From positions 1 through 23,618 of IMG/VR virus record IMGVR_UViG_3300044911_001066: a DNA stretch of 23,618 bases. The stretch is one strand, 5' to 3'. Below the pieces are notes generated by a model that searched no databases, had not been told where the DNA came from, and was given only the letters and a program-made list of their open reading frames with translations. A program made the position numbers and the translations under genes. The stretch is from a virus. Positions 4,228 through 22,917 of the stretch are shown here, in pieces. Each line of letters starts with the position of its first letter. The first letter of the stretch is position 1.

Positions 4228-5076
4228 ATGACACTTGTAGAACTCTGGGACGCCTTCCTCGCTGAGCGTTCTATTGCCTTGTGCCCAACAAGCCTTACCT
4301 CTGACTACCGGCAGGTTCGCAAGTGGTTGATTCGATGTCCTGTGCAGGACCTCAGCCACGCAAGACAGGTGATGATCTGGGTCCTAGGCGAAAAGCCTGT
4401 GCTGTCGTCACGGCGCGTGGCGATGTACACCAAAAGCATGTACAAGTGGGCGGCGCAAGAGGATGTTGGCTACCTAGAACGCAACCCGCTGGCCAGCTTC
4501 AAAATGCCGAAGGCGCCGCAAAAAGACGAGGAGATTGTCGTAATACCACGCAATGAAGTCGGCATAGTGCTTGCTGCACTTGCTGCAAAATGCAGCTATC
4601 AAGATGTCAACTGGTCGTGGTACACCGAGTTCATGCTGCAAACTGCAATGCGCACTGGTGAGGTGCGAGCTTTGAGATGGTCAGACATCAGGGAAAATAA
4701 GATCCTTGTACATAGCAACTGGACACTGACACACGGTTATAAAGACAGCACTAAAACCAACAAGAAGCGATGGGTGCCGTTGAACAGTAAATGCCAAGCC
4801 ATCCTTGAGCAACTGCCACAGGAAAACGAGTGCATCTTCCCGTGGAATCGAGTGGCGTTTCAGAGTTACTTCCGTAAAAAGCTGCAGCCGTTGCATGGCG
4901 CTGGGTTGATCTCCCACCTGTACCGTCCGTACGACTGCAGGCATACGGCAATCAGCCGCTGGATTGAAGCCGGAATCCCAGTGCCACAGGTGGCTGCATG
5001 GGCCGGCAACACCAGCGAGGTGATTTTCAAGCACTACTGCAATACCACCCAAGAGTACGAGATGCCTGTACTATGA
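4228..5076 (+). CDS. int: Tyrosine recombinase / phage integrase (282 aa)
   Basis: It would catalyse site-specific integration of the phage into the host chromosome. The N-terminal ~90 residues fit a SAM-like core-binding domain. The catalytic part shows R142 (AMRTGEVRALRWSDI), a lysine-bearing beta turn near K176-K180 (TKTNKKRWVPL), R238 in YDCRHT, and the nucleophile Y270 in FKHYCNT. Two usual positions differ: the first His of HxxR is Tyr (Y235), and the His of the 'LGH' position is Asn (N261 in WAGNTSE). Similar substitutions occur in some phage and cyanobacterial integrases, so I do not read this as inactivation. Length and completeness suggest a functional gene. It sits after a strong terminator, and I found no good promoter in the short gap before it. 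Confidence 0.9.
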   Translation: MTLVELWDAFLAERSIALCPTSLTSDYRQVRKWLIRCPVQDLSHARQVMIWVLGEKPVLSSRRVAMYTKSMYKWAAQEDVGYLERNPLASFKMPKAPQKDEEIVVIPRNEVGIVLAALAAKCSYQDVNWSWYTEFMLQTAMRTGEVRALRWSDIRENKILVHSNWTLTHGYKDSTKTNKKRWVPLNSKCQAILEQLPQENECIFPWNRVAFQSYFRKKLQPLHGAGLISHLYRPYDCRHTAISRWIEAGIPVPQVAAWAGNTSEVIFKHYCNTTQEYEMPVL

Positions 5077-6667: not shown

Positions 6668-6804
6668 TGGCTGTCAAATCCAAGACTGGCGCGGCTCGCA
6701 TTGAGCACCAACCCGGACCTCCCAAAACCACTAGCCAGGGCTACGGCCAACACAGCCGCCCACGCCGTCGTGGTAAGAAACCACTGCGCGGTCAAGGCCG
6801 GTAG
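6667..6804 (+). CDS. Basic 45-aa conserved cyanophage protein
   Basis: The start overlaps the upstream stop (TGATG). The product has no acidic domain and is strongly basic: MAVKSKTGAARIEHQPGPPK, then TTSQGYGQHSRPRRRGKK and the end PLRGQGR. Short proteins with the HQPGPPK core and an RGQG(R/K) end recur next to tail genes in cyanophages as I remember them. It lacks hydrophobic segments and is probably disordered, possibly binding nucleic acid or a structural partner. The function is not known. Confidence 0.75.
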   Translation: MAVKSKTGAARIEHQPGPPKTTSQGYGQHSRPRRRGKKPLRGQGR

Positions 6805-6832
6805 CTACAATGCAAAAGTAGCCACTGCTGCC

Positions 6833-7102
6833 ATGATCGAAGTCATCGCCGCAGTAGCTGGCGCAAGTATCTCAGTTGCTGCCATGGGCGCAATGGGATT
6901 CAGCCGAAAAAATGACGAGGCGAGAGATGCCGTGGTGCGTTTGACTTCGGCCGTCGAACACATAGCCACGCAGTTGGAAGTGCTCCACACGGACATCAAG
7001 GATGATCGCCGCGAAACATTCCAACGCCTTGGTGCCGTCGAACAGCGGGTAGTCAAACTAGAAGCCAAGGACAACTGGGTAGGCGACGAACGACGTAGGT
7101 AA
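6833..7102 (+). CDS. Membrane-anchored coiled-coil protein, possible holin or spanin-like (89 aa)
   Basis: I chose the ATG at 6833; the frame extends further upstream but only through the antisense-like coding of the previous gene. Residues 3-23 (IEVIAAVAGASISVAAMGAM) form one hydrophobic helix, followed by a charged helix from about 29 to 78 (VEHIATQLEVLHTDIKDDRR, ETFQRLGAVEQRVVKLEAK) with coiled-coil heptads. This layout fits a small inner-membrane phage protein, such as a class III holin-like or membrane-docking protein. The stop overlaps the next start (TAATG). The family is not identified with confidence. Confidence 0.65.
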   Translation: MIEVIAAVAGASISVAAMGAMGFSRKNDEARDAVVRLTSAVEHIATQLEVLHTDIKDDRRETFQRLGAVEQRVVKLEAKDNWVGDERRR

Positions 7103-19263: not shown

Positions 19264-19848
19264 ATGGGATTTCTCTCCAAAAAAGCGTCTGCATCAGTCA
19301 ACAGCGGTTCCAGCGGCGGCGGCTACCTGCAGGTCAGCAAGCTGACTGACGGTGGCTCGGTCCGTTTCGCGTTGCTGTCCGACCAACCCCTCGAAGGTTA
19401 CGAGGTGTGGGGCGCCAACACCGAAGGCCAGTCCAAGCCCTTCCGTTTTGATTACGAGCCCACCCCCGAGGATGTGGTCGCTGAAATGGGCGACTTCGAG
19501 CCCCGCGAAGGCCGTGGCGGCCCCGGCACCTACGACGTTAAGTTTTTTGTAGCCACGCCGGTTTACAACTTCGACGCCGGTGCCGTCCAAGTGATGAGCC
19601 TGACCCAAAAGTCGATCATCAAAGAGCTGGATCAGATCAGCCAGATGGACGACTACGAGGACCTGCTTGCCTGGGACTTCAACCTCAGCAAGAAAGGCTC
19701 GGGCCTTCTGACCGAGTACACCTTGCGCCCCGTACCCCGTAAGAAGGGCGCCCAGGAGCACATTGATGCTGCCTGGATCGAGGCCAAGTCCAACGGCTTC
19801 GATCTGACGCGTCTTCTCACCGGAGGTAATCCTTTCAAGGCCGCATAG
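19264..19848 (+). CDS. Possible single-stranded DNA-binding protein (194 aa)
   Basis: The N-terminus (MGFLSKKASASVNSGSSGGG) is a flexible Ser/Gly-rich arm. It is followed by a beta-rich domain (YLQVSKLTDGGSVRFALLSD, then YEVWGANTEGQSKPFRF), an acidic stretch (EPTPEDVVAEMGDFEP), and a second part (YDVKFFVATPVYNFDAGAVQ, LAWDFNLSKKGSGLLTEYTL) in which the aromatic-beta pattern fits an OB-type or gp2.5/gp32-like fold. Similar proteins in cyanophages are usually called hypothetical or SSB. It is divergent from the primase-helicase and shares its control region, which suits an SSB. There is no acidic C-terminal tail like that of T7 gp2.5, so confidence in function is moderate. Confidence 0.55.
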   Translation: MGFLSKKASASVNSGSSGGGYLQVSKLTDGGSVRFALLSDQPLEGYEVWGANTEGQSKPFRFDYEPTPEDVVAEMGDFEPREGRGGPGTYDVKFFVATPVYNFDAGAVQVMSLTQKSIIKELDQISQMDDYEDLLAWDFNLSKKGSGLLTEYTLRPVPRKKGAQEHIDAAWIEAKSNGFDLTRLLTGGNPFKAA

Positions 19849-19917: not shown

Positions 19918-20463
19918 ATGACAGCAGTCCCCGCAGGCACTACTTGGCTTGAGTTCACAGAGTTCCACAAAATCCCAACCTCTTCAGGCGGATTTTATTT
20001 AATGTTCAGAAACAGACCATCCATTTGCGTCTGTAAAACCGACCAGCGCTTCGTTTACCTCATTCAGGACGAGCTTGATGCCCTGGAACGAGGCGACACA
20101 GTTAGGCTGGCCTGCATAAAAGATCCAGATCCCCAGCGTGTCGATCACTGGCGCATAAGCCTTCTGTATTACGAAGCTCGTTACGCCGACACGCTACAAG
20201 AACAACAGGCAGAACAAGAAAGGCAACTAGAACCAACCTACGAGAACGTTCTAGAACAAACAACTACCAGCACTAAACCGAGTAAGCACATCACCTGCAA
20301 AGTATCACTAGAAGATCATGCACTTCTGAACGAACTTTACAAAAAAGCAAAGATCGTTCACGGAGAGTGCATACATTTTGGTGATTTTGTAGCTGCTTTA
20401 CTTACTCGCCAACTAGAGGTGGTGAAGCTTTTGCATACAGCTGAACCACAGTTGCCTTTCTGA
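19918..20463 (+). CDS. Hypothetical protein (181 aa)
   Basis: The ATG at 19918 gives MTAVPAGTTWLEFTEFHKIP. The first ~80 residues are beta-rich (FYLMFRNRPSICVCKTDQRF, VYLIQDELDALERGDTVRL). The middle is a charged helical stretch (ARYADTLQEQQAEQERQLEP). The C-terminal ~55 residues (SKHITCKVSLEDHALLNELY, KKAKIVHGECIHFGDFVAAL) show a strand-helix-helix order reminiscent of an RHH-type domain. The gene is somewhat richer in A+T than its neighbours. A strong terminator follows. I cannot name a family. Confidence 0.6.
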   Translation: MTAVPAGTTWLEFTEFHKIPTSSGGFYLMFRNRPSICVCKTDQRFVYLIQDELDALERGDTVRLACIKDPDPQRVDHWRISLLYYEARYADTLQEQQAEQERQLEPTYENVLEQTTTSTKPSKHITCKVSLEDHALLNELYKKAKIVHGECIHFGDFVAALLTRQLEVVKLLHTAEPQLPF

Positions 20464-20475
20464 CCAAAGACAGCG

Positions 20476-20501
20476 GCCCCGTAGTTGCACGGGGCTTTTT
20501 T
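20476..20501 (+). terminator. Rho-independent terminator
   Basis: GCCCCGT (20476-20482) and ACGGGGC (20489-20495) form a perfect 7-bp stem with a 6-base loop, followed by six T residues. It ends the transcript of the SSB-like gene and the 181-aa gene, 12 bases after the stop. Confidence 0.9.
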
Positions 20502-20503
20502 AC

Positions 20504-20512
20504 TGGTATAGT
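20504..20512 (+). promoter_or_regulatory. Extended -10 promoter for the exonuclease
   Basis: TGG-TATAGT is a good extended -10 right after the terminator and 22 bases upstream of the preferred GTG start at 20535. A -35 would fall within the terminator stem, so activity should depend on the extended element. Confidence 0.55.
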
Positions 20513-20534
20513 GAAATTGGGAAAGAGTATCTCC

Positions 20535-21359
20535 GTGCCCTCCAACACACAAGACACCCTAGCCAATCTCCGTAAATGGAAGCTGGTACAAGATAATTCA
20601 GGCCCATTCAGGGTCTACCGCGACCAAAAGGGCAATGTATATTCTAGTGTTACACACATCCTTGGGCAGACGAGTGACCGCACAGGACTGGAGCGCTGGA
20701 TCGCCCGCCTCGGCGTCACAGAAGCCAATCAACAACGCGATGTAGCAGCCAAACGAGGCAACCTCGCCCACAACCAAGCCGAGTATCTCCTCAAAACAGC
20801 CCAACGACTGGCGCGTAACACTGCAAACAAACGCAACGCCATTAAGTGGGATGACAACGGCTTGGCACGCATCCCAGCCCCCATTACCCAGTGGGCCTTA
20901 AAGAAAGTTCACGAAAACCTCCCCCAAGTTGGCTGGAGCGCCGCCGGTTATGCCCGAGGCCTATCCGACTGGATCGTGACTAACGTCACCGAAATTTTTG
21001 CCAGCGAATTCAGCATCCACCACCCAGCCGGCTTCGCCGGCACTTGTGATGCACTGGTATCTCTCAAAGGCCACCCGGGCATTACGATTTGTGACTGGAA
21101 AACCAGCACCAGCAACAAAATGCCCTACATGAACGGCAGCCATTCATACGTCCACCAACTAGGCGCCTATTCACTGGGACTGCAGCACCTCACCGGCCTA
21201 CGCCCATCAGGTGGTACGGTTGTACTAGCCCGCAGGTGTGGCGAGCCAGACGTGTACGGCATCGACCAAGACGCACTGGCACTAGCCGAGGACGCCTACC
21301 TGGAACGCGTTAAGACATACCACGAAAACCTAGAAACCCAGTCACAGCAAGGCGTTTAA
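20535..21359 (+). CDS. PD-(D/E)XK nuclease, phage exonuclease type (274 aa)
   Basis: I start at the GTG at 20535 (MPSNTQDTLANLRKWKLVQD); a GTG at 20511 overlaps the -10 element and so is unlikely. The fold is recognisable from YSSVTHILG, the motif RGNLAHNQAEYLL with H79, ASEFSIHHPAGFAGTCDALV with D172, the core ICDWKTS with D187 and K189, and the helix HQLGAYSLGL with Q208 and Y212. This is the RecB/Cas4-like PD-(D/E)XK order (D...DxK...QxxxY), typical of phage 5'-3' exonucleases used in recombination or host DNA degradation. It stands next to an SSB-like gene, which fits DNA end processing. Nuclease call is good; exact polarity unknown. Confidence 0.85.
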   Translation: MPSNTQDTLANLRKWKLVQDNSGPFRVYRDQKGNVYSSVTHILGQTSDRTGLERWIARLGVTEANQQRDVAAKRGNLAHNQAEYLLKTAQRLARNTANKRNAIKWDDNGLARIPAPITQWALKKVHENLPQVGWSAAGYARGLSDWIVTNVTEIFASEFSIHHPAGFAGTCDALVSLKGHPGITICDWKTSTSNKMPYMNGSHSYVHQLGAYSLGLQHLTGLRPSGGTVVLARRCGEPDVYGIDQDALALAEDAYLERVKTYHENLETQSQQGV

Positions 21360-21404
21360 CCCCTAACTTGCGACAAAACCTCTACATCCGCATTCAAACG
21401 CACC

Positions 21405-21611
21405 ATGTTTGCACTGGTACTTTCTACTGTAGTAGGCCTCCAGAGTCCGGTAGTCAAGGTAGGTACCTGTCCTCTTGGCTGGTACACATCGGGCAGCTAT
21501 TGCGTGCCGTCTCGGGCTACGCCCTCGACAACAAGCCCGGACGTCATTCAACGCACTGGAACATGCCCACTGGGGTGGTACAGGTCCAACAATTACTGCG
21601 TCTCGCGCTAA
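21405..21611 (+). CDS. Small secreted protein with two CPLGWY-type Cys repeats (68 aa)
   Basis: After a short hydrophobic N-terminus (MFALVLSTVVGLQSP), the protein holds two copies of a 14-residue unit: TCPLGWYTSGSYCV (21-34) and TCPLGWYRSNNYCV (53-66). Each has two Cys 11 residues apart, likely one disulfide per repeat, so export to an oxidising compartment is expected. The signal peptide lacks the usual basic N-region; no in-frame start lies further upstream. I have seen similar CPxGxYxSGxYC repeats in short secreted proteins of bacteria and phages, without a known role. It lies between exonuclease and small terminase genes. Confidence 0.7.
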   Translation: MFALVLSTVVGLQSPVVKVGTCPLGWYTSGSYCVPSRATPSTTSPDVIQRTGTCPLGWYRSNNYCVSR

Positions 21612-21636
21612 CGCCCATTCAGGACTGGAATAGCCC

Positions 21637-21642
21637 TACACT
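21637..21642 (+). promoter_or_regulatory. Possible -10 (TACACT) before the small terminase gene
   Basis: TACACT lies 14 bases before the GTG at 21657, giving a leader of only about eight bases. The hexamer is the same as before the polymerase and the HTH gene, but the TG is missing. Weak evidence. Confidence 0.2.
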
Positions 21643-21656
21643 GCATTCAGCAGTTT

Positions 21657-22172
21657 GTGACTGTCACACCCGTGATTGACGACATCAACCAGAACGACGA
21701 CGACATCGAACCGATTGACGGTGGCGTCCAGCCGGAGAAGCCGAGCAAGTTTGTGTCGCCATTCACTCGGGCAGAAAACCGCTATTCAAAGGGCCGCCCA
21801 ACCAATGACGCTCAAATGCAAGAGCGTATCAATGCTGCCTACATGTTGATGTTGCAGGGTGGATCTCGCCGGGAAAATGCTTGCCAACTGTCCACCCGCT
21901 ACGGTGTTAGCTTCCGTCAAGCAGAAAACTACATTCATGAAGCCCAGAAGTTGATGAAGCTGGATTTCGCTGGAGAGCGTGCCGAGTTTCTCAATCAAGT
22001 CAACAACATGCGGATGCACACCGTCAAAAAGGCACTCAAACGCGGCAACTATCAAGTAGTGGCTCAACTACTCGATAGCCTGGGACGTGCAATGGGCGAG
22101 GGAAGTGTGGAGGAAGCCGCCAATCAAGCCCCCAACCTCAACATCACCATCGAAGACAAACGGCAGGGCTAG
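21657..22172 (+). CDS. terS: Small terminase subunit-like protein (171 aa)
   Basis: The GTG at 21657 gives MTVTPVIDDINQNDDDIEPI; a second GTG at 21672 is possible. An acidic, flexible arm precedes a helix-turn-helix region (residues ~52-100: AQMQERINAAYMLMLQGGSR, QLSTRYGVSFRQAENYIHEA). A helical oligomerisation-type segment follows (AEFLNQVNNMRMHTVKKALK, GNYQVVAQLLDSLGRAMGEG). This arrangement matches phage small terminases that recognise the packaging site. No large terminase lies within the window, so the call rests on domain layout. Direct repeats begin six bases after the stop, which fits a packaging site next to its recognition gene. Confidence 0.65.
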   Translation: MTVTPVIDDINQNDDDIEPIDGGVQPEKPSKFVSPFTRAENRYSKGRPTNDAQMQERINAAYMLMLQGGSRRENACQLSTRYGVSFRQAENYIHEAQKLMKLDFAGERAEFLNQVNNMRMHTVKKALKRGNYQVVAQLLDSLGRAMGEGSVEEAANQAPNLNITIEDKRQG

Positions 22173-22177
22173 ATTCG

Positions 22178-22230
22178 CATTCAAGGCGTGTAAGTTGCAT
22201 TCAAGGGCGTCAGAAGCCATTCATGACTGG
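22178..22230 (+). repeat. Three direct repeats (CATTCA-) at exact 20-bp spacing
   Basis: CATTCAAGGCGT (22178), CATTCAAGGGCGT (22198) and CATTCATGACTGG (22218) start exactly 20 bases apart, about two helical turns, on the same strand, immediately after the small terminase gene. Related CATTCA sites occur upstream at 21391, 21545, 21616 and 21644. Phased binding of an oligomeric DNA-binding protein, such as a small terminase at a packaging site or an initiator at an origin, is the natural reading. Confidence 0.65.
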
Positions 22231-22231
22231 C

Positions 22232-22243
22232 GCCCCTAGGGGC
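22232..22243. repeat. Palindrome GCCCCTAGGGGC
   Basis: A perfect 12-bp palindrome one base after the phased repeats. Its 10-bp core CCCCTAGGGG recurs at 10069-10078 in the tandem palindrome region. No T run follows, so it is not an evident terminator. Confidence 0.45.
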
Positions 22244-22269
22244 ACCTCGCCTTGGCTTGATAATGGGAA

Positions 22270-22284
22270 TGAGAATCATTCTCA
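22270..22284. promoter_or_regulatory. Fur-box-like palindrome TGAGAATCATTCTCA
   Basis: A perfect 7-1-7 inverted repeat. Against the classical 19-base Fur consensus I count 15 matches over 22266-22284. It lies between convergent genes and not in an obvious promoter, so classic repression of a neighbour is not evident. A chance palindrome or a part of the packaging patch are alternatives. Confidence 0.4.
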
Positions 22285-22298
22285 ATAGATAGGCACAG

Positions 22299-22329
22299 AA
22301 AAACGCCCCAACCCCGAAGGACTGGAGCG
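22299..22329 (-). terminator. Terminator with UUCG tetraloop for the leftward pair
   Basis: On the - strand CGCTCC-AGTCC, the loop TTCG and GGGTT-GGGGCG make an 11-bp stem (with some G-T pairs) closed by the very stable cUUCGg loop, followed by TTTTT. It stands 8 bases past the stop of the 22337-22498 gene and ends that operon. Confidence 0.85.
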
Positions 22330-22330
22330 T

Positions 22331-22345
22331 AGGGGGTCACCCCCT
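22331..22345. repeat. Palindrome AGGGGGTCACCCCCT over a stop codon
   Basis: A perfect 7-1-7 inverted repeat that overlaps the TGA of the leftward 53-aa gene and directly precedes its terminator. It could form a second small hairpin in the mRNA or bind a protein. Confidence 0.4.
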
Positions 22346-22500: not shown

Positions 22501-22917
22501 TTAGGGCGTGCGGGTTTTGTAGGGTTTGCGGGTTTGGCCTTTGTCGTTGCGGGGTTTGCGTGGTGCCCCTGGTGCTTTGCGTGTGGTGGGACGGTTGCGC
22601 GTTTTTTCTGCACTTAATTCTGCGAGCCAGTCCGGTTTAAGGTCTGCCGGACATGGTGCCCCACCATTGAGCAGCTGACACTGTGACCAGTAGGGGATCA
22701 GTTCTAGGTGGAGTTGATTGAGCCCTTCTTTCCCCCATTGCTGGTGCAGGGTCAACATATCGCGCCAATCTGACGCGGTGAGCCTGGATCGTTCGGCCGA
22801 CCACCTAAGGTCTCGGAGCATCCTTTTTTCGAGTCGGATTCGTTCGCGTTCTTGTTCGCGTTGATCTGCTGCCAGCTGCTTGCGTTCGCGGTTGGTGTTC
22901 CACTCACCACCAGTCAT
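22501..22917 (-). CDS. Highly charged coiled-coil and basic-tail protein (138 aa)
   Basis: The ATG at 22917 gives MTGGEWNTNRERKQLAADQR. Residues ~8-50 are a highly charged helix (EQERERIRLEKRMLRDLRWS) likely to form a coiled coil. The centre (LHQQWGKEGLNQLHLELIPY) is helical with a Cys pair nearby (residues 79 and 88 approximately). The C-terminal ~35 residues are Arg/Lys/Pro-rich (RPTTRKAPGAPRKPRNDKGQ) and probably disordered. It is the first gene of a small leftward operon facing rightward genes on both sides. A nucleic-acid-binding role is plausible; no family is recognised. Confidence 0.65.
   Translation of the reverse strand: MTGGEWNTNRERKQLAADQREQERERIRLEKRMLRDLRWSAERSRLTASDWRDMLTLHQQWGKEGLNQLHLELIPYWSQCQLLNGGAPCPADLKPDWLAELSAEKTRNRPTTRKAPGAPRKPRNDKGQTRKPYKTRTP

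Follow-up and report, generated by a model that had tools for sequence, protein, structure and literature searches.

Our sequence analysis revealed an array of CATTCA hexamers upstream of TerL, and in TerL's orientation, across a large and widespread group of mostly uncultivated viruses of picocyanobacteria. The best single explanation, which we put forward tentatively, is that this array constitutes a pac/cos-like packaging-initiation region, i.e., a polar recognition site for a sequence-specific phage factor.

The array and its surroundings in the window

The window (the whole stretch of DNA that was analysed) is a 23.6-kb fragment of a virus record. Its CATTCA zone (Table 1) contains 12 copies, all on the plus strand, compared to 0.7 expected in 2.2 kb, and the remaining 21 kb contains two, both on the minus strand. 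A preliminary description had singled out three CATTCA direct repeats at 20-bp steps within the patch 22173-22345; their spacing is indeed exact, and they are the visible end of the larger array. In a first-order simulation with the same composition, any hexamer occurred three times at equal spacing in 0.05% of the simulated 173-bp regions, and at least three times irrespective of spacing in 7% of them. The 20-bp phasing did not hold up as an organising feature, being one of many spacings (9, 13, 18-25, 34 bp and more), and the spacing analysis found no clean 10.5-bp phasing. A second strand-biased word, GACTGGA/GCTGGAG, is present in the same zones (GACTGGA: 47 forward, 0 reverse and 7.6 expected in the k-mer table), and its enrichment partly reflects the terminator stems of the convergent gene.

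Most of the palindromes that had been listed for the patch are incidental or part of the opposing gene's terminator. The 12-bp palindrome GCCCCTAGGGGC and the 15-bp Fur-like palindrome TGAGAATCATTCTCA are both present as described, and the Fur-like one is the only patch element besides CATTCA that recurs. This 7-1-7 palindrome and its near variants are found within the exo-TerL interval of relatives (also in G006, G010, G015, L192, L250, L237, L221, L198, L215 and L216). Their position is immediately beyond the array or, alternatively, about 170-550 bp ahead of TerL, and they may act as a late-promoter operator or an iron-responsive element. The UUCG-loop terminator exists, with a 12-bp stem and a T-run, but on the minus and not the plus strand, so that it would terminate the convergent minus-strand gene. 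The last element, AGGGGGTCACCCCCT (22331-22345), had been called a perfect 15-bp palindrome and is not fully palindromic, because its 6-bp arms flank a 3-nt centre.

Immediately before the three repeats lies the gene of a 171-aa HTH protein, the putative small terminase (TerS). This protein had no match in Pfam, matched phrog_34910 only (function unknown) and matched no named TerS family. Its AlphaFold model (mean pLDDT 67) consists of an HTH and long helices and weakly matches G20c TerS (6ejq; Z 5.2 over 100 residues) among many generic HTH matches, while PDB, BFVD and profile searches returned generic HTH folds and nothing more specific. The HTH and the helical C-terminus suggest a small terminase, and so does the gene's place in the relative G001, where a 99%-identical homologue (24392-24907) precedes the confirmed TerL (27434-28681) by about 2.5 kb. 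Peptides with CPLGWYxSxxYCV repeats similar to those of the small ORF between exo and terS are encoded after terS in L024 and L025. The integrase gene of the window shares 83.6% nucleotide identity with the integrase gene of Synechococcus phage S-LBS1, which suggests a temperate relative or a recent gene exchange.

Table 1. Positions of the array, the neighbouring genes and the patch elements in the window
Feature	Position	Strand	Remarks
Tyrosine integrase-domain gene	4228-5076		PF00589, 7e-14; about 15 kb from the array
SSB-like protein	19264-19848	+	Start of rightward operon; phrog_1607, E 1.4e-5
Whole CATTCA zone	20061-22223	+	Coding and non-coding; exo, CPLGWY ORF, 171-aa gene and the spacer after it
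CATTCA starts	20061, 20605, 21141, 21391, 21545, 21616, 21644, 21760, 21932, 22178, 22198, 22218	+
EXO, PD-(D/E)XK-type exonuclease	20511-21359	+	phrog_298, E 3.6e-27
Small ORF with two GTCPLGWYxSxxYCV repeats	21405-21611	+	Between exo and terS; one CATTCA; sequence read directly
171-aa HTH protein, putative TerS	21657-22172	+
Three CATTCA, 20-bp step	22178-22223	+	Densest, terminal part of the array in the window genome; directly 3' of the 171-aa gene
Palindrome GCCCCTAGGGGC	22232-22243		Clear conservation not seen in relatives
Fur-box-like palindrome TGAGAATCATTCTCA	22270-22284		Recurs in relatives
UUCG-loop intrinsic terminator	22303-22330	-	RNA fold -17.4 kcal/mol, z -1.5
Convergent gene, family F3	22501-22917	-	In 35 of the compared loci; its terminator is the right part of the patch

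Conservation, placement and orientation among relatives

The relative G001 is a 43.3-kb contig coding for TerL (Terminase_6N, phrog_2), a portal and a tyrosine integrase, and its 127-bp end repeats indicate a circular assembly. G010 and G046 are circular contigs as well. Among the near-complete relatives, two with 127-bp and one with 101-bp end repeats are circular assemblies, which is compatible with circular permutation. Since TerL relatives (about 80% identity) are present on a contig of a Prochlorococcus single-cell genome (L266) and in a cyanobacterial MAG, the phage group probably infects picocyanobacteria. The usual gene order is PRIM (-), SSB (+) and EXO (+), followed by TerS and TerL (+). 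Besides the main group (group A), we distinguish the AT-rich group B (G021, G022, G023 and L266; TerL about 80%), in which homologues of the group A primase and SSB were not detected, and group C (G025, G026 and G028; GC 0.62-0.63), with TerL about 25% identical and PRIM, SSB and EXO related to those of group A. TerS-like HTH proteins occur in all three groups. Phages of GC 0.30 (L113 and L123) and of GC 0.55-0.60 (G001) have TerL proteins with about 80% identity to each other, whereas their TerS share only about 30%; in this comparison TerL is unusually conserved and TerS is fast-changing or swapped.

In 20 relatives found by means of the 171-aa protein, the cluster zones contained 210 forward CATTCA and 1 reverse, with 4.7 expected; these zones were picked as the densest, so the enrichment figure leans upward, while the strand bias is independent of that choice. 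A gene-blind DNA-pattern scan for three CCATTCA retrieved about 30 loci with 171-aa homologues, mostly distant ones (28-46%). Loci with three CATTCA in the ParB-like gene f44, which codes for EWEWDILANEWD on the other strand, were excluded as a coding coincidence, and other CATTCA-rich loci of the pattern scan (e.g., L073, L074, L085, L086 and L108) were excluded as having no TerS/TerL neighbourhood.

Selection on the motif is avoided in a homology-first set, which pools loci obtained by TerL homology with the 171-aa-protein loci; here an array was defined as three or more CATTCA in 150 bp, and the counted loci have at least 4.5 kb upstream of TerL. A forward array relative to TerL was present in 42 of the 50 loci and a reverse array in none, with 524 forward and 73 reverse CATTCA in the 7 kb upstream of TerL. 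Two of the eight array-less loci bear a CTTTCA variant array. The array is absent from some loci with the same TerL and from named isolates with related TerL or other genes (S-LBS1, S-2L, HTVC202P and HTVC111P). The direct repeats thus persist in relatives, and their absence there was what the preliminary description had named as evidence against its own proposal. L248, a relative without a CATTCA array, has a 29-bp-spaced tandem array of TTGCAA and GAGAATCACTCTC (6734-6895) directly upstream of TerL and adjoining a minus-strand TerS.

The CATTCA zone lies mostly 1.5-5 kb upstream of TerL and comprises 5-20 copies of one hexamer over 0.1-2.5 kb or more, running through coding sequence. The motif context is AAAnGC-CATTCA-TG, and it is the same in group C (A-rich, then GC-CATTCA-AGG). 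The gene immediately before an array may be exo, terS or another small plus-strand gene, and some loci have arrays at two of these positions. About 20 of 52 loci carry an array at the 3' end of exo, mostly about 2 kb from terS; in many relatives the TerS-like gene follows such an exo-adjacent array only after 1.8-2.9 kb and has no copies beside it. The window, G004, G006, G018, G020, G045, L202 and L442 have the array directly 3' of terS (terS sits between exo and the array in the window's sub-family), and in all three group C genomes it directly follows a plus-strand TerS-like HTH gene. Adjacency to the TerS-like gene is real in several clades without being a rule; the features common to the arrays are their place in the interval upstream of TerL and their orientation, which is that of TerL in groups A, B and C. 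The contig starts near the array share no common base or sequence, and contig-end clustering was rejected as a sign of a physical terminus.

DNA-level selection, motif switch and absence from hosts

Synonymous shuffles, which rest on our ORF calls and treat related sequences as independent once near-duplicates are removed, gave 34.8 ± 5.3 sense CATTCA for the EXO homologues of group A compared to 149 observed, and 17.2 ± 3.3 for TerS compared to 48 observed, with no excess in TerL (14 vs 25.9). The zone of group B consists of minus-strand genes and the motif still points with TerL (84 forward, 10 reverse); in these genes the forward motif occurs 65 times in the zone vs 39.8 ± 3.5 in shuffles, and 4 times vs 4.0 outside it. 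These data show that selection acts on DNA inside coding sequence. Purely intergenic arrays of group B are also antisense to the local operon (L113 7061-7108, L119 130-169 and L076 5121-5196), and some intergenic arrays of this group are antisense to both neighbours. Because the group B arrays are antisense to local genes, motif orientation follows the late-gene direction and not transcription. The antisense intergenic arrays disfavour an RNA-sense motif, and a polar DNA-level signal is the simplest account.

In L225 and L229, CTTTCA replaces CATTCA in the same layout, with 11 and 17 forward copies upstream of TerL and one reverse copy each. A scan for CTTTCA arrays found L442, L479, L489 and L493, all with the same kind of TerL; their arrays follow exo, except that those of L442 and L479 are located where terS ends. 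Together with L265, the whole array is switched in all these phages. A switch of the whole array in concert, which took place in one sub-clade, implies a sequence-specific reader that changes with the phage and is thus probably phage-encoded. A single change accounts for the switch on both the EXO and the SSB tree, with support 1.0 and only four and three variant tips, respectively; the TerS and TerL trees need two each. The two changes on the TerS tree are due to L265 and L493, which carry TerS of a lineage otherwise paired with CATTCA.

No phage-like arrays were found in 201 Cyanobiaceae genomes, in which three-copy matches (27 of 201 genomes) were few and mostly coding-like or simple repeats. 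CATTCA was observed 137 times vs 143 expected in 200 kb of an AT-rich Cyanobiaceae genome and in slight excess, 51 vs 37.7, in 200 kb of a GC-rich one. A host-derived element or host Chi was rejected because the host genomes examined had neither phage-like arrays nor a strong CATTCA enrichment.

Proposed packaging role and competing explanations

We tentatively infer that the process marked by the array is packaging, which fits best because of the fixed relation to TerL, the closeness of terS in several clades and the compatibility with circular permutation. Counting against packaging are the unlike sequences of the contig starts near the array, the loci with this TerL that have no array, the roughly 2 kb between terS and most exo-adjacent arrays, and a motif type that changes twice on the TerS and TerL trees but once on those of EXO and SSB. 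The preliminary description had proposed a pac/cos site at which the oligomeric small terminase binds repeats near its own gene. The pac/cos part of that proposal gains from repeats that are conserved, upstream of TerL, in the same orientation and 3' of a TerS-like gene in several clades; as in pac/cos sites, the array lies near terS/terL with matched polarity, here the late-gene direction. Its TerS-beside-own-gene version is weakened, since many arrays are about 2 kb away and the motif type does not follow TerS phylogeny. Under the packaging interpretation, the many asymmetric, variably spaced CATTCA copies between exo and terL would form a polar cis-acting recognition region. A phage-encoded sequence-specific factor would read the array and load on it, alone or with TerS, and the fixed orientation would make TerL set off toward the late genes. 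It is a real though uncertain possibility that the reader is a conserved phage factor other than TerS and that the array is a lineage-wide, oriented hexamer code determining where, and in which direction, packaging or recombination-coupled replication begins. As part of this same reading, the array may, again with some uncertainty, be a distributed, redundant start signal extending through genes and spacers, and not a single pac, cos or ori site.

Known packaging sites offer partial parallels. The pac site of P1 is formed by multiple hexanucleotides (TGATCA/G), Dam sites within about 160 bp; the CATTCA array likewise consists of multiple hexamers, but CATTCA is not palindromic and implies no methylation. 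The SPP1/SF6-type pac of headful phages is also a polar initiation region with direct repeats near the small terminase gene and upstream of terL (PMC4737164). SPP1 pac is, however, a single short region in which boxes of three types surround the cut, whereas the CATTCA array repeats one hexamer 5-20 times, through coding sequence and often 2 kb from terS. We found no description of CATTCA repeats in cyanophages in the open-access literature searched.

The main rival, somewhat unlikely in our assessment, is a replication/recombination signal, either origin iterons or Chi-like sites read by the EXO and SSB module, which would set the replication start or nuclease action. Its best support comes from the position of the array beside exo, which it overlaps and follows in many loci, and from the EXO and SSB trees, on each of which the motif type changes once. 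Furthermore, groups A and C have PRIM, SSB and EXO in common and TerL hardly, and a remote EXO-type nuclease lies within the CATTCA zone of group B. Iterons and Chi sites are, like the array, multiple oriented short repeats, and Chi-like sites are typically of fixed polarity. Yet the spacing of the array is variable, the CATTCA enrichment in hosts is below Chi size, and no homologues of the group A primase or SSB were detected in group B, whose EXO-like gene runs opposite to the motif. Cumulative GC skew, a weak test given the small genomes and the influence of gene orientations, has its genome-wide extremes elsewhere than at the array in G001 and G010.

Binding of the array by TerS alone, i.e., with its HTH reading CATTCA directly beside its own gene as first proposed, appears improbable. 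The array does directly follow terS in the window and several divergent clades, and TerS-like HTH proteins occur throughout the three groups. The cosB R sites of lambda-like phages, several short TerS-bound repeats upstream of terL (PMC4669245), are comparable in layout. They are, however, few and of mixed orientation, and in lambda and 21 the TerS helix and the R sites co-vary (PMC4669245), whereas the CATTCA array is strictly oriented and its motif stays stable while TerS varies. CATTCA phages have completely different TerS recognition helices (SFRQAENYIHEA, SVATAWRDWEAV and SETTAWDDWNRV), and CTTTCA is found alongside two TerS lineages, each of them most closely related to TerS of CATTCA phages. 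This variation of the helix under a constant motif, unlike in lambda and 21, makes TerS doubtful as the only reader, as does the 2-kb distance of many arrays from terS. This doubt is tempered by the pac phages, in which TerS binding frequently shows no clear preference for a sequence (PMC4737164, PMC9611059).

We consider about equally improbable a transcription/RNA element. The sites would then mark the 3' ends of rightward early operons (termination/stability) or, in the manner of stoperators, bind a repressor in short intergenic regions. Many arrays of groups A and C begin right after the stop codon of a plus-strand gene (exo, terS or f43) and before the convergent F3 gene, and cluster A mycobacteriophages offer a precedent in their stoperators, which are short, asymmetric repressor sites of fixed orientation, often near stop codons, that stop transcription (PMC9283540). 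But stoperators are spread over the genome, oriented with transcription and act on it, whereas the CATTCA sites occupy a single zone, are under selection within coding sequence as well, and run antisense to the local operon in group B, including the purely intergenic arrays. Chance, a composition artefact or the spread of a functionless repeat is very improbable: tandem expansion has evidently produced some of the copies (units of 9-13 bp in G010, G020 and L442), but the near-complete strand bias in the cluster zones, the lack of any reverse array in the 50 loci, the persistence across GC 0.3-0.6, the excess over synonymous shuffles and the concerted motif switch argue against it.

Overall, the CATTCA array is a strong cis-acting DNA signal in a widespread, largely uncultivated picocyanobacterial virus group, and it provides a simple DNA signature by which metagenomes can be searched for these phages. 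The natural CATTCA/CTTTCA switch is a genetic handle for finding the reader protein. A distributed layout of this signal would alter the picture of packaging or replication starting at one compact site.
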